NCBI GenBank assembly: GCA_022841745.1
Contig: JALHQW010000009.1
Coordinates: forward strand, 98,910 to 162,909
Origin: Saprospiraceae bacterium
GTDB lineage: Bacteria; Bacteroidota; Bacteroidia; Chitinophagales; Saprospiraceae
DNA: 64,000 nt
Direction of reading: 5' to 3'
Part shown: positions 240 through 56,551 of the stretch, piece by piece
Position numbering within the stretch: the first letter of the stretch is position 1
How the letters are laid out: each line of letters opens with the position of its first letter
Program-made: the position numbers and the translations under genes
Notes under the pieces: generated by a model
Databases searched by the model: none
Seen by the model: only the letters and a program-made list of their open reading frames with translations
What the model was told of the DNA's origin: nothing

Positions 240-2891
240 TTAAATCAACTCTTTCGCTCGCTTCACAGCCTTCTCCAACCCACTCGCATCCTTCCCCCCA
301 GCCGAGGCAAAGAACGGCTGCCCGCCGCCACCGCCTTGAATGTCCTTGGCCAGATCCCTGACCATGTTCCCGGCGTTGTAGCGGTCTGTGAGTTCCTTGC
401 TCACGGAGACCATGATTTGCGGCTTGCCGTCAGCTTCAAGGCCGAAGACAATGACGCAGTTGCCAATCTCCTGTTCGAGTTGGAAGGCAAGGGTTTTCAC
501 GGCGTTGGCGTCTTGCAGCGGTAGTTTGGCGGCAAGGAACTTTACGCCGTTCACCTCCTCGAATTGGCCTTTTAACTGGGCTTTGATGGCCCCAGCCTGT
601 TCGTTCACCATTTGCTCCAACTGCTTTTTCAGCGAACGCACCTCGTCCTGTAAGGCCGTGATGGCTTTGGCGGGATTTTGAGCGCCTTTCAGCAGCGCCT
701 TGATTTCGTCCAATTCCTCGATTTGCGAGAGGAAGTACTGTTCAGCATTGGCAGCAGTTACTGCCTCGATTCGGCGCACCCCAGCGGCCACAGCGCTCTC
801 GCTTACAATTTTGAAAAGGCCAATTTCGCCAGTGGCAGCTACGTGCGTACCCCCACAAAGCTCCTGGCTGAAGTCCTTGTCGAAGGTGATCACCCGGACG
901 GTTTCGCCGTATTTTTCCCCGAAAAGCATCATGGCACCGAGTTTTTTGGCGTCCTCGATTGGCATGTTGCGCACCTCTTCGAGGGCAATGTTCTCCCGGA
1001 TTTTGCCGTTCACCAAGGCCTCGATTTCTCGTACCTGTTCGTCTGTCACCTTCTCGAAATGCGAGAAGTCGAAACGGAGGCGAGCAGCGTCCACGTCTTG
1101 GCCTTTTTGAAGGGCATGGTTGCCAAGCACCTTGTGCAAAGCTGCGTGAAGCAAGTGAGCGCCCGTGTGGTTGGCGCTTGTGGATTGGCGCTTTGTGGCG
1201 TCCACTTTGGCCTCCACATTTTCATTTATCGCCTTCGGCAAACGCTCGACTACATGAACGATCAGGTCGTTTTCCTTCACCGTATCAAGCACGGCAATGC
1301 GTTCCGAGTTGCCGAATTCCATCCAGCCTGAGTCGCCGTGCTGGCCGCCGCTTTCGGCGTAGAACGGAGTGCGGCTCAATACAATATGGTGTTCGTTGCC
1401 TTTTTTGGTTTTCACTGTCCTGCTGCGCAACACCTGCGATTTGTGAACCTCCAACTGGTCGTAGCCAACAAATTCTACGTCACCAGGGGCGAGAATGGTC
1501 CAGTCGCCGACGGTCTTTTCCGCATCGGCTCGGCCACGTTCTTTTTGGGCTTGCATGGCTTTTTCGAAGCCTTTTTCGTCCACGCTCCAGCCTTTTTCCT
1601 CGGCCATGAGGCGGGTGAGGTCAATCGGGAAGCCGAAGGTGTCGTAGAGTTCAAACGCCTCGTCGCCAGCGATGACACCGTCCTTGGCGGTCAAATTTGC
1701 GAAGCGACGTAGGCCATTTTCAAGGGTGTTCAAAAACGATTTCTCCTCGCTCTGGATGATTTTGGCGACTTGCTCTTGCTGGGCCTTCAGTTCAGGGAAC
1801 ACGTTGGCGAACTGGTCGGCCAGCATCGGCAAGAGGCGGTAGAGGAAGGGTTCCTTGATGTTCAAAAACGAATAGTAATAGCGTACCGCCCTGCGCAGGA
1901 TTCGGCGGATGACATAGCCTGCCCCGCCATTGTCTGGCAATTGCCCATCGGCAATGGTGAAGCTCACTGCCCGGATGTGGTCAGCGATGACCCGCATGGC
2001 GATGTCACTCATCAGGGATGAGGAGTGAGGGGTGGGGGATGAAGGGGCAGAAAGGTCAGGGTACTGCCCCGTGTATTTTATACCGCTTTCATTTTCAACG
2101 AATTGGATAATGGGCGTAAAGATGTCGGTGTCGTAGGTATTGTACTTGCCTTGGATAACAAGGGTGAGGCGCTCAAAACCCATGCCCGTGTCCACGTGCT
2201 TGTCGGGCAGTTCTTCCAGCGAGCCATCAGCCTTGCGGTTGAACTGGATGAATACGTTGTTCCAAATTTCGATGACCCTTGGGTTGTCCTTGTTCACGAG
2301 GGCCTCGCCGGGGATTTTGGCCCGCTCCTCGTCTTGGCGAAGGTCAATGTGGATTTCGGTGCAGGGGCCGCAGGGGCCAGTGTCGCCCATTTCCCAGAAA
2401 TTGTCCTTTTTGTTCCCGTTGATGACGTGGTTGGGTGGCAGTACCCGCTGCCAGAAAGTACGTGCCTCATCGTCGGCAGGTACGCCCTCCTTGGGGCTAC
2501 CCTCAAAGACAGTGGCGTAGAGGCGGTCTTTCGGCAGCCCAAGCACGTCAGTCAGCAATTCCCACGACCAAGCAATGGCTTCGTCCTTGAAATAGTCACC
2601 GAAAGACCAGTTGCCAAGCATCTCAAACATGGTGTGGTGCGTGCCGTCACGGCCTACTTCTTCCAGGTCGTTGTGCTTTCCACTGACCCGAAGGCATTTC
2701 TGGGTGTCTGCGATGCGACGCACGTCGGGTGTCTGGGTGCCGAGGAAGAAGTCCTTGAACTGGTTCATGCCCGCATTGGTGAACATGAGCGTGGGGTCGT
2801 CCTTATTGACGATGGGGGCAGAGGGCACAATCTTGTGGCCTTTGGATGCGAAGAAGTCGAGGAATGCTTGGCGGATTTGCTGTGCAGTCAT
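240..2891 (-). CDS. alaS: Alanyl-tRNA synthetase
   Basis: This class II synthetase charges tRNA-Ala in the cytoplasm and clears mischarged Ser and Gly. Its 883 residues match the usual length (about 876). The aminoacylation core lies at residues 1-250. The editing-site zinc ligands are visible as H575-x3-H579 and C679-x3-H683, and the C-terminal DHHA1 domain has the glycine run near residue 860. ATG at 2891 matches the family N-terminus. Residues 281-292, just before the conserved IAMRVIADHIR helix, are a low-complexity Ser/Pro insert encoded by a heptamer repeat. The neighbour at 3424 is divergent. Confidence 0.98.
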   Translation of the reverse strand: MTAQQIRQAFLDFFASKGHKIVPSAPIVNKDDPTLMFTNAGMNQFKDFFLGTQTPDVRRIADTQKCLRVSGKHNDLEEVGRDGTHHTMFEMLGNWSFGDYFKDEAIAWSWELLTDVLGLPKDRLYATVFEGSPKEGVPADDEARTFWQRVLPPNHVINGNKKDNFWEMGDTGPCGPCTEIHIDLRQDEERAKIPGEALVNKDNPRVIEIWNNVFIQFNRKADGSLEELPDKHVDTGMGFERLTLVIQGKYNTYDTDIFTPIIQFVENESGIKYTGQYPDLSAPSSPTPHSSSLMSDIAMRVIADHIRAVSFTIADGQLPDNGGAGYVIRRILRRAVRYYYSFLNIKEPFLYRLLPMLADQFANVFPELKAQQEQVAKIIQSEEKSFLNTLENGLRRFANLTAKDGVIAGDEAFELYDTFGFPIDLTRLMAEEKGWSVDEKGFEKAMQAQKERGRADAEKTVGDWTILAPGDVEFVGYDQLEVHKSQVLRSRTVKTKKGNEHHIVLSRTPFYAESGGQHGDSGWMEFGNSERIAVLDTVKENDLIVHVVERLPKAINENVEAKVDATKRQSTSANHTGAHLLHAALHKVLGNHALQKGQDVDAARLRFDFSHFEKVTDEQVREIEALVNGKIRENIALEEVRNMPIEDAKKLGAMMLFGEKYGETVRVITFDKDFSQELCGGTHVAATGEIGLFKIVSESAVAAGVRRIEAVTAANAEQYFLSQIEELDEIKALLKGAQNPAKAITALQDEVRSLKKQLEQMVNEQAGAIKAQLKGQFEEVNGVKFLAAKLPLQDANAVKTLAFQLEQEIGNCVIVFGLEADGKPQIMVSVSKELTDRYNAGNMVRDLAKDIQGGGGGQPFFASAGGKDASGLEKAVKRAKELI
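2016..2050. repeat. Heptamer iterons inside alaS
   Basis: Five consecutive 7-bp units occupy exactly 35 bp on the plus strand: GGATGAG, GAGTGAG, GGGTGGG, GGATGAA and GGGGCAG. They encode AlaRS residues 281-292. The same kind of iteron, with GGGATGA-like units, occurs inside the ABC exporter at 36624-36697. Confidence 0.75.
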
Positions 2892-3423
2892 AAAATTAAG
2901 TATTGTTATTGGCAGGTCTTTGAGAAGGAAATGGTTCTAAAATAGGGTTATTGAAGAATGTTTTGATAATTTTTGTTATAACAAATTGACAAAAATCATT
3001 TTTGTAATCTGTTGAATTTCTTTTAGTTTAGCTGAAAATCTCAAAGAAAAGTTTCAAGCAGTGCTTAAAAGTTTTCCACATAAGGGTTGCTTTTCAGGGT
3101 TTTTAAGCATATTTGCAGCCCGAATTTGATTTTTATGTGACGATTAGGAATAACTTGAAACATAAAATCAGGTTGCGGACAGTCTTTGAGAAGAATAATC
3201 TACTGATATATCCAAGACGTGTTTTCGGTTTTTACACACGTTAACGAAAATGGCGGCTAATCGCAATTTTCAATTGACACAACCTAAAGTTTGGGCAAAC
3301 GGATTTGAAAAGCTTAGGGGAGGGACACCCATATTAAAATTGCTTTTACGATGCCTGTCCAAATTGAGGCCCTTTACTTTTAAAGGGGCGCAAAGTTAGG
3401 TTTTGGCTCAACAACAGAACAGT
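2892..3423. other. Divergent intergenic region, alaS / M23 peptidase
   Basis: This 530-base stretch has no convincing gene. Besides the palindromes at 2972-3004 it holds a 7-bp-arm hairpin at 3370-3387 (CCCTTTA, 4-base loop, TAAAGGG). It also holds a minus-strand TAACTTTG (complement of 3391-3398) that fits the Bacteroidota -7 element. If that promoter drives alaS, the leader would be about 490 bases, starting with the hairpin. Confidence 0.4.
2972..3004. promoter_or_regulatory. Two adjacent perfect palindromes between alaS and the M23 gene
   Basis: A 14-bp palindrome (TTTGTTATAACAAA, 2972-2985) is followed 4 bases later by a 15-bp one (CAAAAATCATTTTTG, 2990-3004). They lie 80-113 bases upstream of alaS in a divergent intergenic region and have the look of dimeric regulator sites. 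The regulator is unknown. Confidence 0.45.
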
Positions 3424-13120: not shown

Positions 13121-13821
13121 GGCTTTGAAATTTTTAGTAGAGGGTTTGAAAAAACCTGAGCATTTTGCCGCTAATCACGCTCTCTCAAACCCGTTATAAA
13201 GCTATGTTTAAAACAACTTAAACAAGCTGATTTATGGCATATTGCATGGTGATTTTGGTCTCATTTGACGATAGGGGCATCACTGACTTGAACGGGATGG
13301 ATGAACTGACTTATAGGGTGATGGCAGATGGATTTTGAGGGGATAAGGAATTTAAATTTAGAAAATGGAGGAGTTTTTAGCGATTTACTGGATACTTTAT
13401 ATGCCAGAAGATTATAAGAATAAAGAGGTTCTTCGTGGTTTTGTATGGGTAAACATCTATCATATTGTAACCCCTCGTTTCAACGAGGGGAGCATGAGTT
13501 CCCTCTCGCACATCTATCTTCTTTTCTAAACATCAACATCAAGCATTTGACGAAAGATAGTAAATGCTGATGTTCTGTAAAGAAGAAAGATGTTGTTGGT
13601 GGGTATTTGCCAAATTCCCGCCATTAAAATAGCGGGTTACAAGATGATAGATGTTAAGTGAAATTACCCACAAGAAGACACGAAGAACCAATAAAGAAAT
13701 AGGTGTCAACATAATGCGACAGTGGAGAGATGACACCCTTTTTTCGCTATAAAGGCAAAACCAATTAGCCAATTAATTGTAGAGAAAAAAGATATTACAT
13801 CCTTACTCTGAAATGGCGACG
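13121..13821. other. Intergenic region holding a MITE
   Basis: Apart from the MITE (13427-13689) I see no real gene. A short frame begins at ATG 13365 and runs into the element, ending inside it at 13530. Joining the target duplication across the element would give a 38-codon frame of unrecognised content, probably chance. Confidence 0.6.
13427..13689. mobile_element. 263-bp foldback MITE, copy 1
   Basis: The element starts GGTTCTTCGTG and ends CACGAAGAACC, and an inner arm pair (near 13453-13474 and 13634-13655) matches with one mismatch, so the whole element is a long imperfect palindrome. It is flanked by an 8-bp duplication AATAAAGA (13419-13426 and 13690-13697). It encodes no transposase. 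By eye it is identical to copy 2 at 40444-40706. GG ends with AT-rich 8-bp duplications are like ISL3-family elements, so mobilisation in trans by such a transposase is plausible. Confidence 0.93.
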
Positions 13822-14467: not shown

Positions 14468-14488
14468 TAATTGCTAATTGCTGATTGA
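14468..14488. repeat. Heptamer iterons before the LMW phosphatase gene
   Basis: Two TAATTGC units and one TGATTGA unit follow one another with a 7-bp period, beginning one base beyond the start codon (14464-14466, minus strand). It belongs to the short-period element family described under findings. Confidence 0.5.
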
Positions 14489-17737: not shown

Positions 17738-20700
17738 ATGTCCAAAATTCTATCCCTGACCATAAGGTGCATGGCGCTCATTGTCATTTATTGTGGCAAT
17801 TCGTCCTACGCACAGGTCAGCTACACAGCCAACGACCAGGTACAGCCCTACATGCTCGGTTTCCATCCTGCGGCCAATATTGGTCAGTACACTGCTTTTT
17901 CGGAAGAACAACTCGCCCTGCTCGCAGCGGGCGGCCCTGCCCCAGTGGGTTCGCAAGGCGGACAAGTATTAGGCGCAGGCGTGAAATCGCTGCGACCCGG
18001 CATTTTTGAGAGCTACACCGAGGTGGCGGGCTACGATGCCAGCCTTCCCATTTTTGAAAAATACGATGAACTGGGCATGAGCGAACACACGGTCATCGTC
18101 GGCTTCCCGTCGGCGGCGCACCAAGACCCCACCCAGTATTGCCCCGGCATCCAAAGCACCCTTTTCGCCAATATGTACAGCCCGATTTGGGATGGAGGGG
18201 CAAACGGTACCCCTTATAACGACTCGAACTATTACGCAGCCTATCTTTACAAGACTGTCAATGCCTACAAGGAACACGTGCGCTTTTGGGAAATCTGGAA
18301 CGAACCAGGCTTCGACTACACGGGCGGCCTTGGCTACCTGCCTCCCGCTGCTCCCAATTCGTGGTGGAACGTGAACCCCAGCCCCTGTGACTACAAGCTG
18401 CGGGCACCTATTTTCCATTATGTCAGGCTGTTGCGCATCAGTTGGGACATCATCAAGACCCTCGACCCCGATGCTTATGTGGTGGTTTCCGGCACGGGAT
18501 ACCCCTCGTTTTTGGATGCCATACTCCGCAATACCGACAACCCCGTGGACGGTTCCGTGACTGCCGAGTACCCGCTCAGGGGTGGTGCTTATTTCGACGT
18601 GATGGGCTACCACAGCTACCCGCATTTCGATGGTGGCCTTCGGGAATACAGCGATGCCATCCAAGATTGGGTTTACTACCGTCATTCGGACGGAGCGGCC
18701 AACGCATTGCTTCGCACCAAGGAAGATTACCAGGAAGTGCTGGACAGCTACGGTTACAACGGCTCGACCTATCCCGAAAAACATTGGATTATCACCGAGA
18801 TAAACCTGCCCCGCAAGGAATATCCCGACCCCAGCGACCCCGGCGAGAACTTCATCGGTTCTGCCCTTGCGCAGCGAAATTTCATCATAAAGGCGATGGT
18901 CACCTGCATGGCCAATGGCATTGAGCAAATGCAGGTCTATAAATTGGCCGAGGATACCGAGTTTGAGAATTCCTATTCAGAATTTGACTTGATGGGGCTT
19001 TACAAGCAGCTGGATTACAACCACGACTACTACCAAGAACTGAACGAGGTAGGCGTGGCACACAAAACCGCTTCCGATGTGCTTTATGGCAAGACGTTCG
19101 ACCCGGTGCGCACTGCGCAATTGCAGTTGCCAGCTAATATTGGTGGTGGTGCTTTTAAGGATGCCTTCGGCAATTTCACGTATGTGCTTTGGGCTAAAAC
19201 GCTGACCGATATGAGCGAGACAGCGAGTACGTCTTACTCATTTCCAACAGGTTTGAACGTCCCAAACCTCTTGAAATGCGAATGGGATGGTAGCGTTTCG
19301 CATAATGCGATTTCAGTGCCTTCGGCAAATATTGCATTGACTGGAACGCCGATTTTCCTGACGCAACGGGTGTTTACCATGAACGCCAATACGGGCTGTG
19401 TGCCGTTTGATTTACATTTATCCACACAAGCCAACGGGGCCACTTCGTGGCTTTGGACCATAGAGACCCCAAGCGGTGTGCCTGTCACTTTTATCAGCCA
19501 ATCCCCCAATCCAACACTGACAATCCCCGGCAATTATTCTATCAACCTACAGGCTAAAAATGCGGCAGGCCAAGTCATTGCGGAGCAAACGCAAACGCTG
19601 TTTTTGGAACAAACCCCAAGCCCAATTTTTAATTATGTCCAGTCCGGCCCCATCGTTTTTTTCAAGAACCTGACGACTTATGGGCTTTGTGATTTCACTT
19701 GGAATTTTGGCGATGGAAACATGGTAGCCGAGCCAGAACCGACGCATGTTTACCTGCAATCTGGCAATTACACCGTCACCTTAACCGCTGAAAATCAATG
19801 CGGTATGGTGAATGCGACGCAGAACCTGAGCATCGTTTCACCAACCGTTACCCAACTCGACTTCACCGCCAACGACAGCATACCGGCTTTTACGGGCAAG
19901 TTCCGACCCAGCACCACTTGGGACTATGTGAACAACTGGACTTCCGAGCAGCAAACCGATATTGCCGCAGGCAACCCGCTGGAAGGGGTGGAGGGCGCCG
20001 GCGTAAAGGCGGTGCGTACCTACACGGGCGAGAGTGCTTTCATTGACCTTGGTTATGAGACCCGTACTGCCGAATTCCAGCATTTCAGCAACCTAGACCT
20101 GCGTGACAACAGCTTTCTGTTGGCTTTTCCTGCTGCGCAAAACCAAGACCCTATTCGCTACTGTCCCAACAACCAAAGCGCCCTTTTCAAGGATTTGTAC
20201 CTGGATATTTGGGACAACGGCGAGCATGGCACCCCCGTGAACGAGCACAATCCGTTTGCCCTCTACGTCTGGAACACAGTAAACACCTACAAAGACCATG
20301 TGCGCTTTTGGGAAGTCTTCAACTCGCCCGATTTTGATATGACAGGCGAGAAGGCTTGGCTGCCGCCCGGCGAACCCGGCAACTGGTGGGAAAACAACCC
20401 CGACCCCTGCGACTATGAGCTGAATGCCCCGATTTTCTACTACGTGCGCAGCCTTCGCATTGCCTACGAAATCGTGCATACCCTCGACCCCGATGCCTAT
20501 GTTACCATCAGCGGCATTGCCTTCCCGTCGTTTTTGGATGCGGTCTGCCGCAACACCGACAACCCATTTGATGGCTCGTTGAAAACGCCCTATCCATTGA
20601 AAGGGGGCGCCTATTTCGACGCAGTCGGCTACAAAAGCTATCCGCATTTCGATGGAAGCACCGTGTATTTCGATGTGGCCGCTGGCCAATTTGCTTATGA

Positions 20701-22858: not shown

Positions 22859-23076
22859 GGTTTTACTATCTTACATCCGCAATTATTTAGGAATCATAAT
22901 TGACACTTTCCCCTAGGTTGGCATTCATCCCCCTTCGCCGACATTTTTAGAATTGGTCTCATCTACTCCGTACCCTAAATGGTGTAGTTTGGCTTGTAAT
23001 TTGCTTGTTTTGGTGAATTCTTTTGCCAAGCTGACACGACACGCTAAGGTGTTGTAGACAGTATAATCCAGATGAG

Positions 23077-33525: not shown

Positions 33526-33566
33526 TTGCGCTTTTTTCCTCAAAAACAGCTATGTTTGTACTTTTG
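33526..33566 (+). promoter_or_regulatory. Promoter of the ATPase/TOPRIM-like pair
   Basis: TTG at 33526-33528 and TATGTTTG at 33551-33558 (22-base spacer), directly followed by a second -7 match, TACTTTTG (33559-33566). The expected start lies just before ATG 33576/33585, giving a very short leader and ruling out the start at 33552. Confidence 0.5.
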
Positions 33567-33584
33567 AAAGCAGAAATGCCTGAC

Positions 33585-34694: not shown

Positions 34695-35172
34695 GTGCTA
34701 TTGCGACACATTACTGGTTATGCTTTTGATGCAGATAATCCCGAATCATCAGACCAATGGAATCAGTGGTGTTTTGAGCAGAATGGAGAAGGACTTTTCC
34801 AAGCAAAAAGCGGTCGGTATCATTGATAATGACAAGGTAATCAAGGAAGTGAGGGCCAAGTTTTGCGAGAAATTCGAGAAAGTGGACGAGAACAATCTCT
34901 TGATAAAGATGAAACATAAGGAACATCAAAACTACCTAATCTTACTATGCCCTGCTTTGGAGAGGTTTATCTTAATATCTGCAAGAGAATGTGGAATTCC
35001 TGAAAATGAAATACCCTACACAGAGGAACGGTTGCGTCGGTTGGCCAAGAGTCGAGACGTGGAAAATGACCAAAATCTAAAACAATTCCTCAACCGCATC
35101 ATCCAGAAAAAAGCTACCGGCACCGAAACACTTAAATCATGGCTACGTGAAATAATAGGCGATGAAACCTAA
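34666..35172 (+). CDS. Small TOPRIM-like partner protein of the ATPase
   Basis: 168 residues of no firmly named family. PECYCDT (Glu10, Asp14) near the start and GIIDNDK (Asp54, Asp56) resemble the Glu and DxD metal motifs of TOPRIM nucleases in OLD and PARIS-like systems. CPALERFIL contains a further conserved-looking acid (Glu99). It starts inside the ATPase gene, which supports a shared complex. The stop codon is the first triplet of a heptamer repeat (35170-35203). The role as a nuclease effector is inferred. Confidence 0.65.
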   Translation: MKKSPRILPECYCDTLLVMLLMQIIPNHQTNGISGVLSRMEKDFSKQKAVGIIDNDKVIKEVRAKFCEKFEKVDENNLLIKMKHKEHQNYLILLCPALERFILISARECGIPENEIPYTEERLRRLAKSRDVENDQNLKQFLNRIIQKKATGTETLKSWLREIIGDET

Positions 35173-35203
35173 CCAGTATCCAGTAACCAGCATCCAGTAA
35201 CCA
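35170..35203. repeat. Heptamer iterons starting on a stop codon
   Basis: Five 7-bp units: TAACCAG, TATCCAG, TAACCAG, CATCCAG and a partial TAACCA. The TAA of the first is the stop codon of the TOPRIM-like gene. The array ends four bases before the ATG of the ABC exporter. Confidence 0.8.
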
Positions 35204-35207
35204 AAAA

Positions 35208-37466: not shown

Positions 37467-37577
37467 GCTATTTGTAATACAAAGGAACTAATCGGAGAAG
37501 CTGATTGGTTATTGCCCTCATACCCCCAAATGCCTACCTTCGCAGCCGCTAACCTTGTCACCCAACTGTATTTACGA

Positions 37578-38963
37578 ATGTCGAAAATATTAAAGACCCT
37601 AAAACAAGCACTTTCAGGAGAAGAGCAAGAATTCACGACGGGCAGCATCAACCGGGCCATCATTATGCTGAGCATACCTATGGTACTGGAGATGATGATG
37701 GAGGGCATTTTCGCCCTCGTTGACATTTATTTTGTGTCAAAAATCAGCCCGGAAGCTACTGCGACCGTTGGCATGACGGAAAGTGTTGTAACCATTATTT
37801 ACTCCATCGCAATAGGCTTGAGTGCTGCCGCAACAGCCACAGTAGCCCGCCGCATCGGGGAGCACGACCCCGAAGGTGCTGCAAAAGCCGCTGTCCAAGC
37901 TTGTATCTTGGCTTTGGTTATCTCCTTCATTATCAGCGTATTAGGTGTTGTTTTTGCCGAAAACATATTGAGATTGATGGGCGGCACGGAAAAACAGGTC
38001 GTCGAGTGCGTCGGTTATACGAAGGTCATTTTCGGCAGCAATTTCGTTATCATGTTCATCTTCCTGCTCAATGCCATATTCAGGGGAGCAGGTAACGCCA
38101 GCATCGCCATGTGGGTGTTGGTGGTTTCCAATGCCATCAATATCGTGCTTGACCCCATCCTTATTTTTGGCTGGGGTCCAATCCCGGCAATGGGCATAAC
38201 CGGCGCAGCAGTGGCCACTTCCATTGGGCGGGGGATTGGGGTTTGCATCCAAGTTTACCTATTGCTGCGGGGCACCAATATCATCAAGATTGCGAAACGC
38301 CATTTGGTTTTGCACATTGAAACGATATTGAACATGATGAGGGTGGCCAGCACTGGCACCTTACAGTACATCATTGCCAGCGCCTCGTGGATTTTCCTAA
38401 TGGCCATCATCGCCAAATCAGGTACGGAAGCCGTGTCAGGCTACACCATTGCCATTCGAATCCTCATATTCACCATCATGCCAGCTTGGGGCATGGCCAA
38501 TGCTGCGGCAACGCTCGTCGGCCAGAACCTTGGAGCCAAGCAACCCGAACGTGCCGAAGCCAGTGTTTGGCGCACAGCGCACATGGATATGGTTTTCATG
38601 CTCGTCGTGTCCATTATTTATTTCCTATTTGCGAGGCCCATCGTTTCGAGTTTTGACCCCAATCCGTTGGTGGTTGAGTCAGGCGTGCTTGCCCTGCGCA
38701 TCTTTTCTGTGGGGTATGTATTCTTCGCCTACGGCATGGTCATCTCCTCTGCATTCAATGGGGCTGGTGATACCCTCACGCCAACCTTGGTCAATTTCGT
38801 CTGTTTTTGGTTGATAGAAATACCGTTGGGTTGGCTCTTCGCCATTCAATTTGGACATGGCCTAGCGGGTGTATGTTGGGCAGTTTTCATCGCTGAGAGC
38901 CTCATGGCAGTGATTTTGGTGGTGTTATTCAAGAAGGGGAAATGGAAGGATGTTAAAATATAG
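37578..38963 (+). CDS. MATE family efflux transporter
   Basis: 461 residues with about 12 membrane segments and the two-fold MATE arrangement; cation-coupled export of drugs or metabolites. The N-terminal half contains INRAIIMLSIPMVLEMMMEGIFALVDIYFV-like sequence typical of the family. ATG 37578 (MSKILKTLKQAL) is chosen over 37512. A TACCTTCG at 37534-37541 with TTG 19 bases upstream may be its promoter. The TAG stop is the first triplet of an inverted repeat shared with the convergent gene. Confidence 0.93.
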   Translation: MSKILKTLKQALSGEEQEFTTGSINRAIIMLSIPMVLEMMMEGIFALVDIYFVSKISPEATATVGMTESVVTIIYSIAIGLSAAATATVARRIGEHDPEGAAKAAVQACILALVISFIISVLGVVFAENILRLMGGTEKQVVECVGYTKVIFGSNFVIMFIFLLNAIFRGAGNASIAMWVLVVSNAINIVLDPILIFGWGPIPAMGITGAAVATSIGRGIGVCIQVYLLLRGTNIIKIAKRHLVLHIETILNMMRVASTGTLQYIIASASWIFLMAIIAKSGTEAVSGYTIAIRILIFTIMPAWGMANAAATLVGQNLGAKQPERAEASVWRTAHMDMVFMLVVSIIYFLFARPIVSSFDPNPLVVESGVLALRIFSVGYVFFAYGMVISSAFNGAGDTLTPTLVNFVCFWLIEIPLGWLFAIQFGHGLAGVCWAVFIAESLMAVILVVLFKKGKWKDVKI

Positions 38964-39097
38964 TTGGCAGTTTGATAGTGGGCAGTTGGCAGCCAGTTCG
39001 ACAGTTGTATAGTAAGGGCCGGAACGAAATGCAAATGACTATTCGACTGCGAAACTGCACTCTGACCGCCAACTGCCCTTTGTCGAACTGCCAACTA
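38961..39097. repeat. Inverted GGCAGTT-type iteron element between convergent genes
   Basis: The left arm starts TAGTTGGCAGTT and the right arm ends AACTGCCAACTA, so each arm begins with the TAG stop codon of the gene reading into it (38961-38963 plus strand, 39095-39097 minus strand). Inner parts pair imperfectly. It could end transcription from both sides. Confidence 0.8.
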
Positions 39098-39646
39098 CAA
39101 ATCCTTCGTCAACCCTGCAATCACAAACCAAGAGTCAATCCCAATATTCGGCTTCGCTAAATTGGCATTGGATATGTGCCGAAAGCGCATTTTCAGGTCG
39201 AGGTTCATGCCGCTATCACCGAGTTTTTGGTGCAACCCTGCGGTAAAGTTGTCGGAGAAAATAAAGCCCCGTCGCTGTTGTCTCGTCTCAACCGTGATGA
39301 AATGCGGCCCCGAGCCGATGGCAGCGGTGATGGCCGTCTGTCCAAATACGTTCCAGCGGTACTCCAGCCCCAGGTTCGAGCCAAATTCCCATTCGTAATC
39401 GTCTTTGGGCGAGAAATGCACCCAGACCAATTGTGGTTCCAAATAGACGTACAGGTCGTTCTTTTTACCTTTGAGCAGGTTGGTGAAATTGTAGTAGAAC
39501 AACAGTTGGTAGGGCTTATACTGGCGGCCTTCCTTCAGCGTCTCATGGATGATGGGGATGCCAAGGTGGAAGCCGAGGGCGGGGGACGTTTGGGCGGGGA
39601 CTGTAATTGCAACGAAAAAAAATATAATAAATAATGTAAATCGCAT
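39095..39646 (-). CDS. PagL-like lipid A deacylase / acyloxyacyl hydrolase family protein
   Basis: 183 residues with a signal peptide ending PAQ and alternating beta strands of a small outer-membrane barrel. The C-terminal RFRHISNANLAKPNIGID stretch carries the His-Ser pair of the PagL family active site. PagL removes a 3-O-acyl chain from lipid A in the outer membrane, altering surface charge and immunogenicity. The gene is isolated and convergent with the MATE pump. The activity here is inferred from the motif. Confidence 0.75.
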   Translation of the reverse strand: MRFTLFIIFFFVAITVPAQTSPALGFHLGIPIIHETLKEGRQYKPYQLLFYYNFTNLLKGKKNDLYVYLEPQLVWVHFSPKDDYEWEFGSNLGLEYRWNVFGQTAITAAIGSGPHFITVETRQQRRGFIFSDNFTAGLHQKLGDSGMNLDLKMRFRHISNANLAKPNIGIDSWFVIAGLTKDL

Positions 39647-39742
39647 CTTTTATTTTTTGACAAAGTAAAGCAGATTATCTCAGTTTAAGCTAATTTTACC
39701 TACCAATGATTCTGTTTAAGCTATCTTGAAAAATAAAATCCA

Positions 39743-40546
39743 ATGAGGAATTTTCTACTTCTATCCTTACTCCATGTTTTAATCGTAAACACTGTTTTTG
39801 CTTGCGATTGCTTGCGCACTGAGAGTTTCTGCGAAACGATTTATAATGATGCAACTTCTGGCAATAAAGATACAAGGGTCGTACATGCCGTATTGACCGA
39901 AAAGACGGCTAACCAACTTGATTTCAAGATTAAAGAAACGCTCTCTGGCGAATTTGCCAATGGCAAAATCTTTTATTTCGAAAAAGGCCAAATCTTTGAA
40001 TTTGATGGGTTTGTGATAGGAAAGGAATATATTTTCCACTTGATTCAACCACTTTCTAAACCTCAGTTTCATTATCATTTCTGTGGCACACAGTACCTTC
40101 CTATCGAAAATAACAAAGTTGTGGGCTTTATCCAGCAAGGCATTTATGAGATGCCCCTCAAGGAATTTTTGGATTTGCCAAACTGTGGAGTCTCAATACC
40201 GTCGCTGGAATTAACTCCTACCTTGTTGACTGATAACTCACTCTTCCTCACACCTACAAATTGGCCTCACCCTGCGCCGCTTGAATTCACAATATTAAAT
40301 TCAATCGGCCAATTAATATTTAAACAAAAAATTGAGGAACTACAAGGGGAACAGCCTGTCACCATTGAATTAAAGGAGCTTTCGTCTGGAATGTATTATT
40401 GTCGTTTAGCTTATTTAGGAAGGGAGCAGATGGAGAAAATCTTGGTTCTTCGTGGTTTTGTATGGGTAAACATCTATCATATTGTAACCCCTCGTTTCAA
40501 CGAGGGGAGCATGAGTTCCCTCTCGCACATCTATCTTCTTTTCTAA
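39743..40546 (+). CDS. Secreted protein whose T9SS tail is replaced by MITE sequence
   Basis: A signal peptide is followed by a Cys-rich start (CDCLRTESFC) and a body with no named family, then a T9SS type A-like domain beginning near PLEFTILNSIGQ and running to EKIL. There the 263-bp MITE enters within codon 234. Removing the element and one AAAATCTT copy restores K-V-N-stop, a 237-residue protein with a normal basic T9SS end. As it stands the frame continues 33 codons into the element (267 residues, ending HIYLLF). Sorting is probably lost. Confidence 0.75.
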   Translation: MRNFLLLSLLHVLIVNTVFACDCLRTESFCETIYNDATSGNKDTRVVHAVLTEKTANQLDFKIKETLSGEFANGKIFYFEKGQIFEFDGFVIGKEYIFHLIQPLSKPQFHYHFCGTQYLPIENNKVVGFIQQGIYEMPLKEFLDLPNCGVSIPSLELTPTLLTDNSLFLTPTNWPHPAPLEFTILNSIGQLIFKQKIEELQGEQPVTIELKELSSGMYYCRLAYLGREQMEKILVLRGFVWVNIYHIVTPRFNEGSMSSLSHIYLLF

Positions 40547-40706
40547 ACATCAACATCAAGCATTTGACGAAAGATAGTAAATGCTGATGTTCTGTAAAGA
40601 AGAAAGATGTTGTTGGTGGGTATTTGCCAAATTCCCGCCATTAAAATAGCGGGTTACAAGATGATAGATGTTAAGTGAAATTACCCACAAGAAGACACGA
40701 AGAACC
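40444..40706. mobile_element. 263-bp foldback MITE, copy 2
   Basis: By eye identical to the element at 13427-13689 and in the same orientation. It is flanked by AAAATCTT (40436-40443 and 40707-40714), an 8-bp duplication different from that of copy 1. This proves independent insertion rather than segmental duplication. Confidence 0.95.
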
Positions 40707-43183: not shown

Positions 43184-43268
43184 TTGAAGGATTGAAGGAT
43201 TGAGGGATTGAAGGATTGAATGGGGCACAGCGGCCTTCAATCCTTCAATCCCTCAATCCTTCCATCCT
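43184..43268. repeat. Mirrored 8-bp iteron element between pyrR and pyrB
   Basis: Left arm 43184-43220 repeats AGGATTGA/GGGATTGA; the right arm 43236-43268 is its complement, with a 15-base centre containing GGGGCAC. On the transcribed strand the pyrR stop TGA is inside the first unit and the array ends just before the pyrB start. The RNA could form a stem of about 30 bp between the two genes. Confidence 0.85.
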
Positions 43269-43810
43269 TTATTCGGAAATAGCCAAACAATATCTTCTCC
43301 TTCGACTTCCTTCCATTCCACCCGGACATAAGCCTCATCGAGCGAGTCCACTTGGATGCCCGTGAAGTCAGACTTGATGGGCAAATCACGGTTGAAGCGG
43401 CGATCAACAAGTGCCAGTAGCTCCACTTTTTGCGGCCTTCCAAAATCACCGAGTGCCGACATGGCAGCTTGCACCGAGCGACCCGTGTAGAGCACGTCGT
43501 CCATCAACACCACGTTTTTACCTTCGATGAGGAAGTCCATTTCCGTCACGCTGGCCCGGATGGGCTTGCTGCGGTGGCGAAAGTCGTCCCGGTAAAAAGT
43601 GATGTCGAGCTTGCCGTTTTCGATGCGAGGGATGCCCGTGATTTCTAGCAGCCGCTGGTGGATGCGGTTGACGAGCGGCACGCCGCCCTGCTGGATGCCG
43701 ACGAGGCAGGTGTTCTGGAAATCGTCGTGGTTTTCAATCAATTGATGGCAAAGACGGTCAATGGTCAGCGCAAAGCGCTCAGTAGGTAGTATGACACGTC
43801 CGTTGCTCAT
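43253..43810 (-). CDS. pyrR: PyrR: pyrimidine regulator / uracil phosphoribosyltransferase
   Basis: 185 residues of the PRTase fold; PyrR proteins bind pyr mRNA and also make UMP from uracil and PRPP. The PRPP motif VVLMDDVLYTGRS and the N-terminal RLCHQLIE are clear. ATG 43810 (MSNGRVIL) is chosen; the longer frame to 43963 is low-complexity and crosses a promoter and repeat. It heads an operon with pyrB and the RNA ligase. The -7 element ends five bases before the ATG, suggesting a leaderless mRNA. Confidence 0.92.
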   Translation of the reverse strand: MSNGRVILPTERFALTIDRLCHQLIENHDDFQNTCLVGIQQGGVPLVNRIHQRLLEITGIPRIENGKLDITFYRDDFRHRSKPIRASVTEMDFLIEGKNVVLMDDVLYTGRSVQAAMSALGDFGRPQKVELLALVDRRFNRDLPIKSDFTGIQVDSLDEAYVRVEWKEVEGEDIVWLFPNKGWKD

Positions 43811-43832: not shown

Positions 43833-43889
43833 GGCAGTTCGGCAGGTCTTGTCCCGAATTTTCGGGATGGCAGTTGGCAGTCAGTGTGA
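43833..43889. repeat. GGCAGTT iterons with embedded hairpin upstream of pyrR
   Basis: GGCAGTT-like units flank a perfect hairpin (TCCCGAA, 2-base loop, TTCGGGA). Units resemble the element at 38961-39097. Confidence 0.5.
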
Positions 43890-44183: not shown

Positions 44184-44230
44184 TCAAATTGCCAATCGCT
44201 GCCAAGTGTAAGCAATAATGAATGTAATAC

Positions 44231-44356
44231 CCCGTAAAATTTTGAGTGTTCAAGCCAAAGTTTTAGGTTGTAGGACGTAAAATTTTAGGTCATCTTACCA
44301 AAATTTTACGTTGACCAACCTAAAATTTTGGGTCAATTCATCAAAGTTTTAGGTTG
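44231..44356. repeat. Helically phased array of six AAA(A/G)TTTT cores
   Basis: Cores start at 44236, 44257, 44279, 44300, 44322 and 44343, i.e. spacings of 21, 22, 21, 22 and 21 bp. Flanks follow CC(T)-core-AGGTTG in either orientation. Two helical turns of spacing place all cores on one face, as in intrinsically curved DNA. Confidence 0.8.
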
Positions 44357-44433
44357 GTGAAGTGGTCTTTTTACGCTGTTTTTTCAAGCTGACGGATTAT
44401 TATTTAGCTGATAATCAATTTGTTGTAAAAAAG

Positions 44434-44475
44434 AACAGGGACTTTTCGACCATTTTCGGTCGAAAAGTCCCTGTT
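44434..44475 (-). terminator. Perfect 18-bp hairpin with T-run on the minus strand
   Basis: Arms 44434-44451 and 44458-44475 are perfectly complementary around a 6-base loop. Reading leftward, the hairpin is followed by C and six T residues, a strong minus-strand terminator, although no intact minus-strand gene remains upstream. Confidence 0.7.
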
Positions 44476-50534: not shown

Positions 50535-50580
50535 AAAGTAAAAAGGACAAAGTAAAAAGTAAAAAGGACAAGGTAAAAAG
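50535..50580. repeat. Heptamer iterons upstream of the S9 peptidase
   Basis: Units AAAGTAA and AAAGGAC alternate with a strict 7-bp period over 46 bases. The array lies in the leader region of the minus-strand peptidase gene. Confidence 0.75.
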
Positions 50581-50683
50581 TTGCGGCCAAAGTAAGCAAT
50601 TCTCCATTTTCAACCCAATTTGTCGGTAGCCCGCCAATATCGTTTTTGCAGGAATTGACAAATGCCTACCAGAGGGAAAAAAC

Positions 50684-53700: not shown

Positions 53701-54081
53701 CCTACGCATACCTACAATGCCGATGGCGAGTACGTAGTCACACTATCAGCCTTCAACAGTTGTGGTACAGATGTGTCCACCGTTACGATTAATCTAATCG
53801 CCAACGGCACAGACCTGTTGGAAGAGAGCCGGTACCAGCTACTTGCCTCCCCGAACCCATTTTCCAATGAATTAGTCGTCAATTACAATTTCAATGGCAA
53901 ATACGAGACAGCCAATCTTTTGATTTACAATGTTTTTGGTCAACAAATTTTGTCCCGATCCCTGCTTTCCGACAATGGCAATATCGCTTTTGGGGAAGAA
54001 CTGAAAACCAGCGGTGTTTACTTCCTCCACCTCGATTTGGATGGAAAGAAGAGCAAGGCCGTTAGGGTTGTGAAAATTTGA
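50758..54081 (+). CDS. Choice-of-anchor B secreted protein with PKD domains and T9SS tail
   Basis: 1107 residues from ATG 50758 (MKKLVLACFMLF), which opens the signal peptide ending FAQ; the open frame upstream to 50662 is rejected. An LVIVD-type beta-propeller (about 25-360, choice-of-anchor B) is followed by two carboxypeptidase-regulatory-like domains (EGKVTNAVTGLPIQGANV and the next), a beta-sandwich, three or four PKD domains with WNFGDG-like motifs, and a type A T9SS domain (LLASPNPFSNEL). It is likely surface-attached; its binding target is unknown. Confidence 0.9.
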   Translation: MKKLVLACFMLFAASLSFAQLNMTLTDQIFYPQETSSLWGYIDPEDGTEYAAVGTKTGVSIVNLSDPFNVQEIAFKPDQLNSNSTWREVKSYGHYIYSVTEAGGGVQVINMTDPNNVTSVNWAPNIPGLGVLGSIHSITVDEFGILYLNGSNLNSGGPLMVDVSADDGNPVYVGKLPPIYCHDSYARDNKLYTSDIYDGDFKVYDVTNKQNPVLLATQPTPYDFTHNTWLSDDSKTIFTTDERANAPVGVYDISDLNNIKELDQFRPIATLGGGSIPHNVHVWNDWVITAYYTEGTIIIDGSRPENVIEVGYFDSFVSNTAGFFGVWGVYPYFPSGLVIASDIQNGLLVYNVNYVRACWLEGKVTNAVTGLPIQGANVHIASPQANAGTSGIDGDYKTGQALAGTFQVTFSASGYESKVVPAVLENGILTILDVQLQPLSSYVFGGQTIKSSNGEPIAGAKLVLTDGTNEFTATSDGNGNFNFPGVFGGIYTLYAGAWGYVTEQLNNIQVNGTTGSVTVPLSKGYYDDFILDFGWTATSAATTGLWERGEPVGTVLQGNPANPDNDLPNDLGDHCYVTGNGGGGAGDFDVDNGTVTLTSPVIDLSTFNQPKLKYTPWFFNAGGSGTPNDNMTVRASNGSTTVTIETITQSGSTWKAEREIDLASLISLTNNMHIIFEASDVTPGHLVEAAVDGFKIEDVSPYPFFQANATQGCAPFTVQFNDVSDTTSVRNWSFPGGTPSTSTEKSPTVVYNSPGDFDVSLSVTTNAGNNYLIERSNYINVGVPPVASFNYGVVGNVANFTSTSAGTLLWDFGDNSTSNEANPSHAYTSVGTYTVTLTVSNNCGTVSSTQSLVVTVVPPTAIFTPSGTSGCAPYTVTFTNASLGNPTNFNWNFPGGTPSSSTEPNPTVVYNNGGVFNVQLSVSNAAGSNTAAGSQINVGSVPNALFTWSNTGLDVTFSNASSGGTLYEWNFGDGTMSNLAAPTHTYNADGEYVVTLSAFNSCGTDVSTVTINLIANGTDLLEESRYQLLASPNPFSNELVVNYNFNGKYETANLLIYNVFGQQILSRSLLSDNGNIAFGEELKTSGVYFLHLDLDGKKSKAVRVVKI

Positions 54082-54120
54082 TTGGTGATTCGTGATTGGT
54101 GATTGGTGAATCGTGAATCG
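54079..54120. repeat. Six heptamer iterons starting on a stop codon
   Basis: TGATTGG, TGATTCG, TGATTGG, TGATTGG, TGAATCG and TGAATCG follow without gap. The first TGA is the stop codon of the choice-of-anchor B gene. Confidence 0.85.
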
Positions 54121-54171
54121 TTCATAGCGGTGGCGAAACGAATATTTGAAGAATTATACCAATTACATCCT

Positions 54172-54207
54172 AAAGCCGCTTCATGTTTTGGCATGAAGCG
54201 GCTTTTT
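54172..54207 (+). terminator. Rho-independent terminator after the choice-of-anchor B gene
   Basis: Perfect 14-bp arms (54172-54185 and 54192-54205), 6-base loop, T-run. Confidence 0.9.
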
Positions 54208-54251: not shown

Positions 54252-54286
54252 CTCCAGCATCAAGTATCAAGAATCCAGCATCCAAA
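54252..54286. repeat. Heptamer iterons before the AhpD-like gene
   Basis: CTCCAGC, ATCAAGT, ATCAAGA, ATCCAGC and ATCCAAA with a 7-bp period end three bases before ATG 54290. Units resemble CATCCAG at 35191. Confidence 0.7.
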
Positions 54287-54289
54287 ATC

Positions 54290-54634
54290 ATGTCCATCGT
54301 AACAGAATTCAACGACTACCGGGCCAAGATGAACGAAAAAATCTTCGCCCAAAACAACAAAGCCCTTAACCGATTTTTTGCCCTCGACAAGAACTGCTAC
54401 GAAGCAGGGGCGCTTGATGTAAAAACCAAGGAACTGCTCGGCCTGGTCGCCTCGATGGTACTACGGTGCGACGACTGTATCCGCTACCACCTTGGCACTT
54501 GCCATGAATTGGGCATCACCCGTGAGGAGGTTTTCGAGGTTTTCTCCATTGCCAATTTGGTGGGTGGTTCTATTTGCATTCCACATACCCGTAGGGCAGT
54601 GGAGTACTGGGAAGCATTGGAGGCTGGGGGATAG
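54290..54634 (+). CDS. Carboxymuconolactone decarboxylase / AhpD-like protein
   Basis: 114 residues, the normal length for a single CMD domain. The redox-type CxxC motif with its downstream His (RCDDCIRYHLG) marks the AhpD-like branch, which handles peroxide or alkylhydroperoxidase partners; decarboxylase activity is not implied. It lies 70 bases before the MutS-like gene on the same strand. The stop TAG starts an 8-bp repeat (54632-54654). Confidence 0.9.
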   Translation: MSIVTEFNDYRAKMNEKIFAQNNKALNRFFALDKNCYEAGALDVKTKELLGLVASMVLRCDDCIRYHLGTCHELGITREEVFEVFSIANLVGGSICIPHTRRAVEYWEALEAGG

Positions 54635-54654
54635 GAAATTGGGAAATTGAGGGG
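54632..54654. repeat. Short 8-bp iterons starting on a stop codon
   Basis: TAGGAAAT, TGGGAAAT and TGAGGGG; the TAG is the stop codon of the AhpD-like gene. Confidence 0.5.
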
Positions 54655-54704: not shown

Positions 54705-56489
54705 ATGACAAACTACCAAAGCCGTGCTGCCATTTTCAGGTCAGAGGCTGATTCGCTGCGCCTTAAATACGACCGTTTCTCATGGGTACGGCTCGGTGCG
54801 TTCCTGGGTGGCGTTGGCCTGGTTGCATTGCTGTTCACGGCGCATTGGGCGGTTGGAGCAGTGGCCGCAGTCGTCTTCCTCGGCGGCTTTTACCGACTGA
54901 TGCAATGGCATTTAGCCATAGAAGCGGCGGCCAGTCACACAGAGCGCTTGGCTGCCATCAATGAGGCTGAGGTTAGGGCATTGGCGCACGATTTCACGGG
55001 CTTCCCAGATGGTGCCCGCTTCCTCAAGCACGACCATCCCTACGCACTCGACCTTGACCTTTTTGGGCGGCATTCCATGTTTCAGGCTTGTTGTCGGGCC
55101 ACCACGGCCATCGGGCAGGAGCGGCTGGCGCAATACCTGCTCGAACCTGCTGATTTGCAGTTCATTGCAAATCGCCAAAGAGCCATTTCAGAACTGAAAC
55201 CCATGCTGGATTGGCGGCAGGAGTTTCAGGCGAGGGGCCTCGAAACCACCGACGACCCTGCACACCTCAATCTGCTTAACGCTTGGCTTAATGACCCAGA
55301 CCTTGTGCGGGGCAATGGCATGATGACCTTTGCTTCGCAATTGGCGCCTTGGTATTTCTTGGCCTGTTTCGCTTTGTGGGTTGCATTGGTTCCCTGGCCG
55401 ATTTTTGTAATCTTGCTTTTGCCAATTTTCTTGGTTTTGAAGAAAACGAACGAGCAAGTCGCCAAAATCCACCTGCGTACCGCCTATGCTGAAGCCTCTT
55501 TGGCAGCTTATGGCCGCCTGATGCAAGTGATTGAAGGCCAACAGTTTGAAACAGAATATCTGCAAGCATTGCAGCGCAAACTAACCTCCGAAGGTATGTC
55601 AGCCTCTGCTACGGTTGGGCAATTATCGTACATCATCCGCCAGTTGAACATGCGCTTCAACTTCTTCGCCGTCTTCCTCAATATCGGCTCATTGTGGGAC
55701 CTGCGCTATGTGCTCCGACTGGAAAAATGGCGGGCCGCCCATCGCCAGCAGCTACCTGATTGGTTCGAGGCCCTTCGTGAAATGGAGGCACTGTGCAGTT
55801 TAGCCACCCTTTGGTACAACAACCCTGAATGGACACTTCCAACATTGGCCACGAGTAACGCAATGGATGCGACCGGGCTTGGTCACCCACTCATCCATCC
55901 TTCCAAACGCCAAACCAACGATTTTTTCATCTATCATCGGGGCTACATAAAATTGGTGACTGGCTCCAACATGGCGGGCAAAAGCACCTTCCTACGAACG
56001 GTTGGTTTGAACATCGTACTTGCCCAGGCGGGGTCGGCAGTTTGCGCCAGCAGCCTTCATGTGCCTCCTATGCAAGTCTATACCTCCATGCGTACCCAGG
56101 ACGACCTTTCCGAAAGCACCTCTTCGTTTTATGCGGAGCTAAAAAGGCTGAAGGTCATCATAGAGGCGGTGAAAAATGCCGAGCAGCAAAAGCTACCCGT
56201 TTTCTTCCTCTTGGATGAAATCTTGAAAGGAACCAATTCCGTTGACCGCCACACTGGTTCGGCTGCGCTTATCAGACAACTGATCAGGCTGGAGGGTGGT
56301 GGCATCATTGCCACACATGACCTGGAACTGGGCCGCATGGAAGCCGAGTCGAACGGTCGGGTAGAAAACCTCTGCATGGAAGTGGAAATTCAGAATGGCC
56401 AACTTTTCTTCGACTATAAAATAAAACCTGGCGTCAGCAAAAGCTTCAACGCCACCCTGCTGATGCGACAAATGGGTATTGAGGTATGA
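54705..56489 (+). CDS. Membrane-anchored MutS-like ATPase
   Basis: 594 residues. The C-terminal MutS ATPase domain has Walker A TGSNMAGKSTFLR, the DDLSESTSSF stretch and Walker B FFLLDEILKGTNSVDR. The mismatch-recognition domain I is missing, and hydrophobic segments at about 30-65 and 215-245 suggest membrane attachment. Such MutS-related proteins are common in Bacteroidota, and a role in classical mismatch repair is doubtful. The stop TGA lies in the first units of a mirrored repeat. Confidence 0.85.
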   Translation: MTNYQSRAAIFRSEADSLRLKYDRFSWVRLGAFLGGVGLVALLFTAHWAVGAVAAVVFLGGFYRLMQWHLAIEAAASHTERLAAINEAEVRALAHDFTGFPDGARFLKHDHPYALDLDLFGRHSMFQACCRATTAIGQERLAQYLLEPADLQFIANRQRAISELKPMLDWRQEFQARGLETTDDPAHLNLLNAWLNDPDLVRGNGMMTFASQLAPWYFLACFALWVALVPWPIFVILLLPIFLVLKKTNEQVAKIHLRTAYAEASLAAYGRLMQVIEGQQFETEYLQALQRKLTSEGMSASATVGQLSYIIRQLNMRFNFFAVFLNIGSLWDLRYVLRLEKWRAAHRQQLPDWFEALREMEALCSLATLWYNNPEWTLPTLATSNAMDATGLGHPLIHPSKRQTNDFFIYHRGYIKLVTGSNMAGKSTFLRTVGLNIVLAQAGSAVCASSLHVPPMQVYTSMRTQDDLSESTSSFYAELKRLKVIIEAVKNAEQQKLPVFFLLDEILKGTNSVDRHTGSAALIRQLIRLEGGGIIATHDLELGRMEAESNGRVENLCMEVEIQNGQLFFDYKIKPGVSKSFNATLLMRQMGIEV

Positions 56490-56551
56490 GGTATGAGGTA
56501 TGGAGGTATGTTAGTGCCCAGCATACCTCCATACCTCATACCTCATACCTC
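56480..56551. repeat. Perfectly mirrored heptamer element between convergent genes
   Basis: Arms 56481-56510 and 56522-56551 are perfect 30-bp complements built of GAGGTAT units, around an 11-base centre containing GTGCCCA. The MutS-like stop TGA is inside the left arm, and the TAA of the convergent gene abuts the right arm. It may act as a two-way terminator. Confidence 0.9.

Follow-up and report, generated by a model that had tools for sequence, protein, structure and literature searches.

Short 7- and 8-bp repeat arrays in a Saprospiraceae genome pair as palindromes with the G-rich arm first

The tandem arrays of 7- and 8-bp units described here are, in many cases, the two arms of palindromes, and in these palindromes the G-rich arm precedes the C-rich arm almost without exception. 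We describe them from a 64-kb stretch (G000:C9:98910-162909; the window) of the 8.43-Mb, 178-contig genome of an uncultured Saprospiraceae bacterium (G000), from a larger sample of that genome, and from relatives. For one protein of the window, most of the top named hits come from Saprospiraceae. A preliminary description of the window had pointed to twelve such arrays with differing units; it missed both the palindromic pairing of many of them and their strict polarity. We give a probability of about one half to the reading that the arrays are arms of dispersed palindromes, comparable to Rickettsia palindromic elements (RPE) or miniature inverted-repeat transposable elements (MITE), and that slippage together with fold-back copying renews these arms in steps of 7/8 nt.

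Results

The genome sample comprised 2 x 400 kb, taken as bases 20001-40000 of 40 large contigs (C1-C41 without C9), and is not random. Genes were taken as long open reading frames (ORFs) from a simple script, and part of the arrays assigned to coding sequence (CDS) fall in spurious ORFs. An inverted partner within 700 b was found for 84 of 132 period-7/8 arrays, each arm of a pair being counted separately, compared with 1 of 132 when the surroundings were shuffled. The G-first order was obeyed by 82 of the 84 paired arms (pairs counted from both arms) and broken by 2. Scored as hairpins, 48 of 49 in G000 have the G-rich arm 5′ of the C-rich arm, and the remaining one is a tie; this set keeps nested hairpins and numbers 46 once they are removed. 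The order holds between co-directional genes (21/22), in convergent (6/6) and divergent (9/9) gaps, within ORFs (7/7), and at contig edges (5/5). Since it is the same in convergent gaps and in coding sequences, neither leaders nor the direction of transcription explains the polarity.

The same order was seen beyond G000. All 45 hairpins collected from ten of the 13 other genus members examined are G-first, a set in which some lie at mutually orthologous sites, part of the loci had been inspected beforehand, and two (L293 and L297) are palindromes built differently. All 8 pairs agree in five genomes from two further families, where stretches were picked around matches to GGCAGTT. For the irregular-order family described below, 40 of 40 pairs from four whole genomes are G-first (135 of 146 places used, some one-unit overlaps dropped, and 55 arms without a partner within 400 b). 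The arms mirror one another down to their irregular units, for example over 43 of 43 nt. Where the arms do mismatch, 35 G-U and 26 A-C oppositions were counted, not a significant difference, and 19:16 where the sense strand is defined.

Three further inverted repeats were noted. The most extreme (L213:2097-2313, G010) has arms of about 104 nt made of GAGAGTTT-type 8-mers around a 9-nt loop. The palindrome at L293:3694-3791 (G007) has 49-nt arms and no loop, and L297:89-202 and L165:45-108 hold one inverted repeat in two species (ACTGATT...CACTGATT) that does not have period 7/8.

Polarity is also visible relative to gene ends. Of the 68 arrays that lie no more than 40 b from an ORF end, 59 have the G-rich strand pointing into the gap, that is, on the coding strand downstream of a stop codon and on the noncoding strand upstream of a start codon (38/42 in the first 400-kb sample and 21/26 in the second, which was set aside as a test). 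Four of the 9 exceptions lie in divergent gaps, where 9 arrays obey. We considered local base composition as the source of this polarity. The 5′ flanks without arrays are already G-poor (59 with G>C versus 189 with C>G), and the start-side polarity is therefore partly background. The 3′ flanks are nearly balanced without arrays (120:108) and G-rich in the sense direction with them (39:7), so that base composition covers part of the start side and not the stop side.

The loops are GC-rich in G000, and again in other genus members (0.61 and 0.59, versus 0.41 and 0.39 for the arms). The G000 loops had seemed to share GGGGC/GTGCC, two being identical over 11 nt, and short words were shared among 28 of them more often than after shuffling (5-mers, 141 versus 95.5 pairs, shuffled maximum 117; 6-mers, 34 versus 25.3; 7-mers, 14 versus 6.1). 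We dropped the loop motif as a claim because 32 loops of other genus members were not enriched for a C4/G4 run (5 versus 5.3 shuffled) or for GTGC/GCAC (6 versus 4.4).

The excess is specific to a narrow range of periods. Periods 7, 8, and 9 gave 74, 41, and 11 arrays in the genome sample (32 and 42, 27 and 14, and 8 and 3 in its two halves), compared with none at periods 4, 5, and 11 and 3, 2, 4, and 1 at periods 6, 10, 12, and 13; one dinucleotide shuffle of each 400-kb stretch gave no array at periods 4, 5, 7, 8, 9, or 11. The period-7/8 family of the preliminary description, with its differing units and single architecture, is thus far above chance, and counting over these 800 kb does not refute it. 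Intergenic DNA, about 12% of the sample, holds 24 of 32 period-7 arrays in the first half and 22 of 42 in the second. Elements in the sample are mostly about 50 to 180 bp long and, if the sample is typical, number about 480 per genome.

An array was present in 82 of 375 gaps between genes in G000 and in 19 of 159 from nine other members of the genus, compared with 3 of 83 from other genera within the family and 3 of 112 from other families within the order; after shuffling, the numbers were 0, 0, 2, and 0. By these counts, the excess is a property of the genus within its order and is uneven between species, as read from small samples of the relatives (14 to 60 kb each). Farther afield, a search of 394 other Bacteroidota genomes for three tandem copies of GGCAGTT gave matches in 20, with a very uneven spread: one genome had 213 matches, and most sampled members of its genus had none. 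The reversed GGCAGTT used as a control is not neutral, being itself a unit of G000 (3 and 12 control matches in G000, 2 in G064, 3 in G225). Two genomes of another Bacteroidota family, G412 (L251-L254) and G133 (L248-L250), are rich in GGCAGTT and AGTGCTG heptamers, and most of their sampled congeners have no GGCAGTT match.

The units are many and nevertheless far from random. The 166 arrays of period 7 to 9 in the genome sample fall into 75 exact unit classes, and 101 period-7 arrays fall into 36, versus 96.8 for random units. GGATTGC, GGATTGAA, GGTGATT, GTGATTC, and GGATGCT are the commonest, and arrays of GGGGTTTT and TTTTAGGG occur as well. Three copies of GGATTGAA gave 260 matches in G000 (overlapping registers included) and were present in 11 of 14 genus genomes; the reversed pattern gave none. 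A fixed, irregular order of heptads, GATWTMA-GATRKAC-GATWTMA-GATTTTA, preceded by a run of T, recurs at many sites. With up to 3 mismatches it was matched 91 times in G000, 31 times in its sister G011, and 14, 6, 3, and 1 times in G006, G007, G004, and G012; the other 8 genus genomes had no match, and the reversed pattern had none. Such repetition of an irregular order across sites and species would not result from independent slippage at each site. At one place (L265:9522-9604), the unit drifts in phase within a single array, from AAGTGAA through AAGGCAG to TTGGCAG.

Orthologous sites often keep an array in different species while its unit differs. The gap before the carbamoyltransferase gene, compared in 12 relatives, has GGATTGAA palindromes in G000, G001, and G008, ACGGTTG-like palindromes in G011, G006, and G010, GGGTTTGA in G012, and GGATTTGA in G013. 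In G004 and G007 it is degenerate, G009 has no array, and G003 and G005 have a different short hairpin. In a tree of six proteins, G000 and G011 are sisters and yet have different words here, so that words recur across the tree. Before pstC, G000 has one family and G011, judged by eye, has that family reordered and still mirrored; G006 and G012 have GGGAAATT-like units, G001 and G013 have no array, and the gap of G004 is about 22 b. In the recN leader, GGTGATT palindromes follow a conserved promoter-like stretch in G000 and G001, and a degenerate one was recognized by eye in G009; single arms of another word are found in G008 and G012 and, by eye, in G011, with nothing clear in G007, G003, and G005. 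The 3′ end of the MutS-domain gene has other units in G011, G001, and G007. Where units differ between species at orthologous sites, both arms differ together.

Relatives had an array at 21 of 57 such sites, compared with 19 of the 159 gaps overall (Fisher p 1e-4, script recount): pyr, 7/12; recN leader, 3/11; pst, 2/6; MutS-like 3′ end, 3/12; CMD gap, 3/5; and upstream of the ABC transporter, 3/11. Occupancy was first read by eye (first tally, 22/59) and then scripted with the detection used for the background, the stretch lengths being set after reading. Excluded from the count are the MATE 3′ gap (G000 array below threshold), the linker of the ABC transporter (coding), two loci for which upstream sequence was missing, and the G002 and G005 arrays lying further upstream of recN. 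The sites were chosen as carriers of arrays in G000, and the 159 background gaps weight genomes unequally; site tolerance alone may suffice for the enrichment. The unit family was shared with G000, as judged by eye, in 3 of the 21 occupied sites.

Palindromes of the same polarity also lie inside genes. In G000 they are found in pheT, which is an essential gene, in a 2-oxoacid dehydrogenase E1-type gene, and in an acetyl-CoA synthetase gene. Host ORFs were checked for 4 of the 7 in-ORF hairpins, and each of the 4 has Pfam domains. The comparison with relatives covers pheT, the other two inserts being known from G000. In the six-protein tree, the pheT insert is limited to one clade of 8 species. 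Both arms are present in G000, G004, G013, G008, G012, and G001 (left arm short), and the right arm alone is present in G011 and G006. A short loop takes its place in G007, G002, G003, G005, and three genomes of other genera, whereas the loop of G009 is longer and unrelated, and G010 carries another repeat. The reading frame is open through the insert in 8 of 8 species, stop-free for 837 to 848 codons back from the end of the match; for G004, G001, and G013, the genome search flagged in-frame stops at some point of the pheT match. Right-arm units are uniformly GCAATCC in G000 and G006 and uniformly GAAATCC in G011 and G012; those of G004 and G001 come close to uniformity, and those of G013 and G008 are mixed. 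This pattern is consistent with turnover in place after what would have been a single arrival.

The elements of the window are as follows.

43184-43269: 8-mer palindrome (GAAGGATT); G-rich arm on the left at 43187-43220, C-rich arm on the right at 43236-43269, GC-rich loop between them; inverted repeat 97%, DNA fold z -11.5.
56480-56551: palindrome of GGTATGA units; arms 56481-56510 and 56522-56551 (30 nt, 100%); fold z -13.6.
38961-39097: degenerate palindrome of GGCAGTT-like units; arms of 36 nt, 83% complementary; fold z -6.6; strict period not above shuffles.
36615-36697: AGGGATT array and facing CCTCATC array, a weak palindrome in CDS (Pfam); fold z -2.3.
35170-35203, minus strand (C-rich on plus): single arm of TAACCAG/CATCCAG, from a stop codon to just short of the next ATG at 35208.
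50535-50581, plus strand: single AAAGTAA/AAAGGAC arm between divergent genes, with the purine-rich strand facing inward.
54079-54121, plus strand: single arm of TGATTGG/TGATTCG, beginning at a stop codon (TGA); similar arrays at many places in the genome.
54253-54284, minus strand: single arm of ATCCAGC/ATCAAGT just before the ATG at 54290, on the opposite side of the gap of 54079 and of a different family.
54172-54205, plus strand: ordinary intrinsic terminator hairpin between the arms at 54079 and 54253, conserved in 5 relatives and separate from the arrays.
14468-14487: short TAATTGC array of 2.9 copies, without G/C polarity; among the weakest above chance.
2016-2050, plus strand: claimed GGATGAG-like array; period not above chance (score 9, 0.8 expected per 64 kb).
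43833-43889, plus strand: claimed GGCAGTT copies around an ordinary small hairpin; period not above chance; no other fold.
54632-54654, plus strand: GGAAATTG, two copies; period not above chance.

On reading the sequence, the units named in the preliminary description are present at all twelve of its coordinates. Scored by strict period of 7 or 8 bp, eight of them (14468, 35170, 36624, 43184, 50535, 54079, 54252, and 56480) came out above anything in 5 dinucleotide shuffles of the window, and four (2016, 38961, 43833, and 54632) did not; of these four, 38961-39097 is still a strong inverted repeat. Tandem Repeats Finder returned 35 rows over the window, those touching the claimed places beginning at 14468, 35170, 36626, 36675, 38962, 43184, 43234, 50535, 54079, 54634, 56475, and 56522. 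Placement at gene ends, in leaders, or in linkers is broadly true. Arrays at three places pair as palindromes (43184-43269, 56480-56551, and 38961-39097) and, less clearly, those at 36624-36697.

The palindrome at 43184-43269 fills the gap that separates an aspartate/ornithine carbamoyltransferase gene from a phosphoribosyltransferase gene lying upstream, the two being on the minus strand; from their Pfam hits, we read the pair as probably pyrB/pyrR-like. That at 56480-56551 sits between convergent genes and overlaps the stop codon of the MutS-domain gene, while 38961-39097 lies between convergent MATE and PagL-like genes, whose stop codons are both formed by the ends of the palindrome. The arrays at 36615-36697 lie between the membrane and ATPase domains of a peptidase-C39 ABC transporter; arrays occupy the matching position in G001, G008, and G012, and G002 has a different unit there.

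Other repeats were noted in the window. A 42-bp tandem repeat at its edge (1-141; 2.8 copies, 100% matches) has 21-bp subunits with GGCAGTT-like words, and a 153-bp repeat of 2.9 copies (24325-24773) lies within a 1091-aa ORF. At 44224-44475, upstream of a 707-aa ORF at 44895, AT-rich 43-bp repeats and several overlapping inverted repeats are followed by a perfect 18-bp hairpin. One inverted-repeat pair occurs with equal spacing at 13510-13654 and 40527-40671, suggesting a duplicated segment or an insertion element.

Discussion

Unit dispersal, the unit changes at orthologous sites, and the pheT pattern together point to one process that copies elements from site to site and a second that renews them in place, unit by unit, without loss of the match between arms. 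We imagine that copies move between sites in a transposition-like manner, or that ectopic conversion acts through the units they share. At a given site, slippage in one-unit steps would add, remove, and homogenize units, and the arms would be kept complementary by fold-back (template-switch) copying. If the G-rich strand were made first, fold-back from it would yield the G-first order. Slippage with fold-back template switching suggests itself as the simplest set of known processes for turnover in place. Elements may be tolerated wherever sequence is free, as in gaps, untranslated regions (UTRs), and protein loops, and would need no function there.

Several observations weigh against this dispersed-palindrome reading. 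At 56480, local seeding is visible: the unit continues the conserved terminal codons ATT GAG GTx TGA and thus extends the gene's own last codons. Unpaired arms near gene ends obey the polarity in 16 of 19 cases, a regularity not to be expected from fold-back by itself unless partners have decayed. Neither a clean insert boundary, which the pheT alignment does not give, nor a target-site duplication came to light. The recN leader seems to keep one family over long divergence (G000, G001, and G009), which also fits selection. Finally, 25 of 30 relatives have Y1 transposases (PF01797), the one mobilizing family searched, but their presence bears no visible relation to the arrays, and the draft genomes G013 and G002 (78% and 89% complete) have arrays and no PF01797. 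We accordingly rejected a Y1 transposase of the REP-associated tyrosine transposase (RAYT) type as the driver.

The strongest alternative, unlikely in our view, is that the palindromes are functional RNA (or DNA) hairpins, with selection keeping a UTR structure for insulation, mRNA-end stability, or a block to read-through while the units drift. That both arms differ together between species fits such a role, as do the recN hairpin, which persists in distant genus members downstream of its promoter-like stretch, and the sense-strand G-richness of 3′ arrays far past background. Selection on RNA pairing is not evident in the mismatches, G-U having no significant preference over A-C even where the sense strand is defined. 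The identical polarity inside pheT, the E1 dehydrogenase gene, and the acetyl-CoA synthetase gene also argues against it, as does the fact that the same gap may hold an element in some relatives and none in others. The preliminary description had left an RNA function open, and one as terminator is unlikely at the sole gap where it can be judged: the CMD gap holds an ordinary terminator (54172-54205) between its arms, which would therefore fall on different transcripts. No T run directly follows 43184-43269, 56480-56551, or 38961-39097 on the plus strand; TTT(T) precedes 43184 and on the minus strand would follow the hairpin as AAAA. Rfam gave no match in the window at gathering scores. As neither 7 nor 8 is a multiple of 3, the arrays might conceivably act as a cassette of stop codons in all frames.

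Somewhat less likely still is ordinary slippage of short local sequence, as for long simple sequence repeats (LSSR) or the short tandemly repeated repetitive (STRR) sequences, with polymerase geometry favoring 7 to 8 nt and palindromes arising by quasi-palindrome correction. It would account for the sharp 7/8 period, the locally seeded unit at 56480, and the uniform units of several species at the shared pheT site. Heptamers are also reported to be the most frequent type in most genomes rich in repeats (Mrazek 2007, cited in PMC4679880). Plain slippage, which the preliminary description had offered among its explanations, is not supported as a full account: one irregular order at many sites in several species already weakens it, period-7 units fall into far fewer classes than random units would, and close relatives carry unrelated families at one place.

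Very unlikely, we think, is enzyme-driven, telomere-like addition, in which a reverse transcriptase or terminal-transferase-like enzyme would extend a G-rich 3′ end in 7/8-nt steps, followed by fold-back priming of the C-rich strand or head-to-head joining of two ends. G-strand-first order in every context seen and the phase drift at L265 speak for it, and the unit lengths and G-runs, including the GGGGTTTT and TTTTAGGG arrays, resemble eukaryotic telomere repeats. A single template would not yield the 75 unit classes of the sample.

The STRR of heterocystous cyanobacteria comprise several degenerate heptamers per genome and are intergenic; we know of no paired arms or polarity in them. The likeness to STRR drawn in the preliminary description went in the right direction, and a closer published relative, which matches the strand rule, is the G-rich heptamers GGGAATC and GGGGA(C/T)T of Xanthomonas and Nostoc (Rehm et al. 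2015, PMC4692102). These are mostly intergenic, on the noncoding strand upstream of ORFs and on the coding strand downstream, and convergent pairs number 70 and 75 in two Xanthomonas genomes and are few in Nostoc (PMC4692102). A 7-bp unit overrepresented outside genes and a strand rule are found here too. In contrast to the one consensus unit per genome with quadruplex-capable G-tracts described there, the genome studied here has many units, at periods 7 and 8 and also 9, the commonest contain only GG and do not form a GGGNATC unit with quadruplex G-tracts, and one site has different units in different species.

RPE resemble our elements by description: they are dispersed palindromes of several families, inserted in frame in conserved genes (reviewed in PMC10969869), as in pheT and the ABC linker here. 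Our elements differ in having arms that change unit by unit and many copies between genes. To our knowledge, RPE arms are not 7/8-bp iterations. The TAACTGA direct repeats of Beggiatoaceae, cyanobacteria, and five Bacteroidetes are intergenic, often near start codons; they form direct arrays of a single unit, with one indirect repeat known in the main genome, and no palindrome polarity is reported in the portion of the paper used here (MacGregor 2015, PMC4679880). Repetitive extragenic palindromes (REP) are short, dispersed, and extragenic (PMC3733652); unlike REP/RAYT systems, the arms here are themselves repeats, and no link to Y1 (PF01797) was found. Simple sequence repeats that arise by slippage have a local, site-independent unit, unlike the fixed irregular order over many sites seen here, the case at 56480 being the one locally seeded. 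As to MITE, the pheT alignment gives no clean boundary, and a parent element was sought as PF01797 only. The heptamer, the strand rule, and the convergent pairs are thus already published, for GGGAATC in Xanthomonas; many exchangeable units, their dispersal, and in-gene inserts were not found in print in the literature consulted. Searches of an open-access library, which leaves subscription papers outside, turned up no account for Saprospiraceae, nor, among the papers listed and consulted, one of different units at orthologous sites.

One can envision, as a bolder reading that we hold to be rather improbable, a distinct bacterial class of mobile palindromes in which a process, whether dedicated or accidental, always makes the G-rich strand first in 7/8-nt steps and then copies it by fold-back, as telomere-like addition with hairpin priming, and in which there is a pool of interchangeable "words" replacing one another at fixed places, in at least three Bacteroidota families and, by the published convergent-pair rule, in Xanthomonas. 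A G-first rule that is near-absolute across the gene contexts seen, and that extends to ten other genus members and to five genomes from two further families, gives the heptamer repeats of bacteria, otherwise a scattered curiosity, a common mechanism that can be tested. Sister species whose words differ at one place, and differ in both arms together, provide a natural record of palindrome copying, and the in-frame insert of pheT illustrates a route from noncoding repeats to protein.

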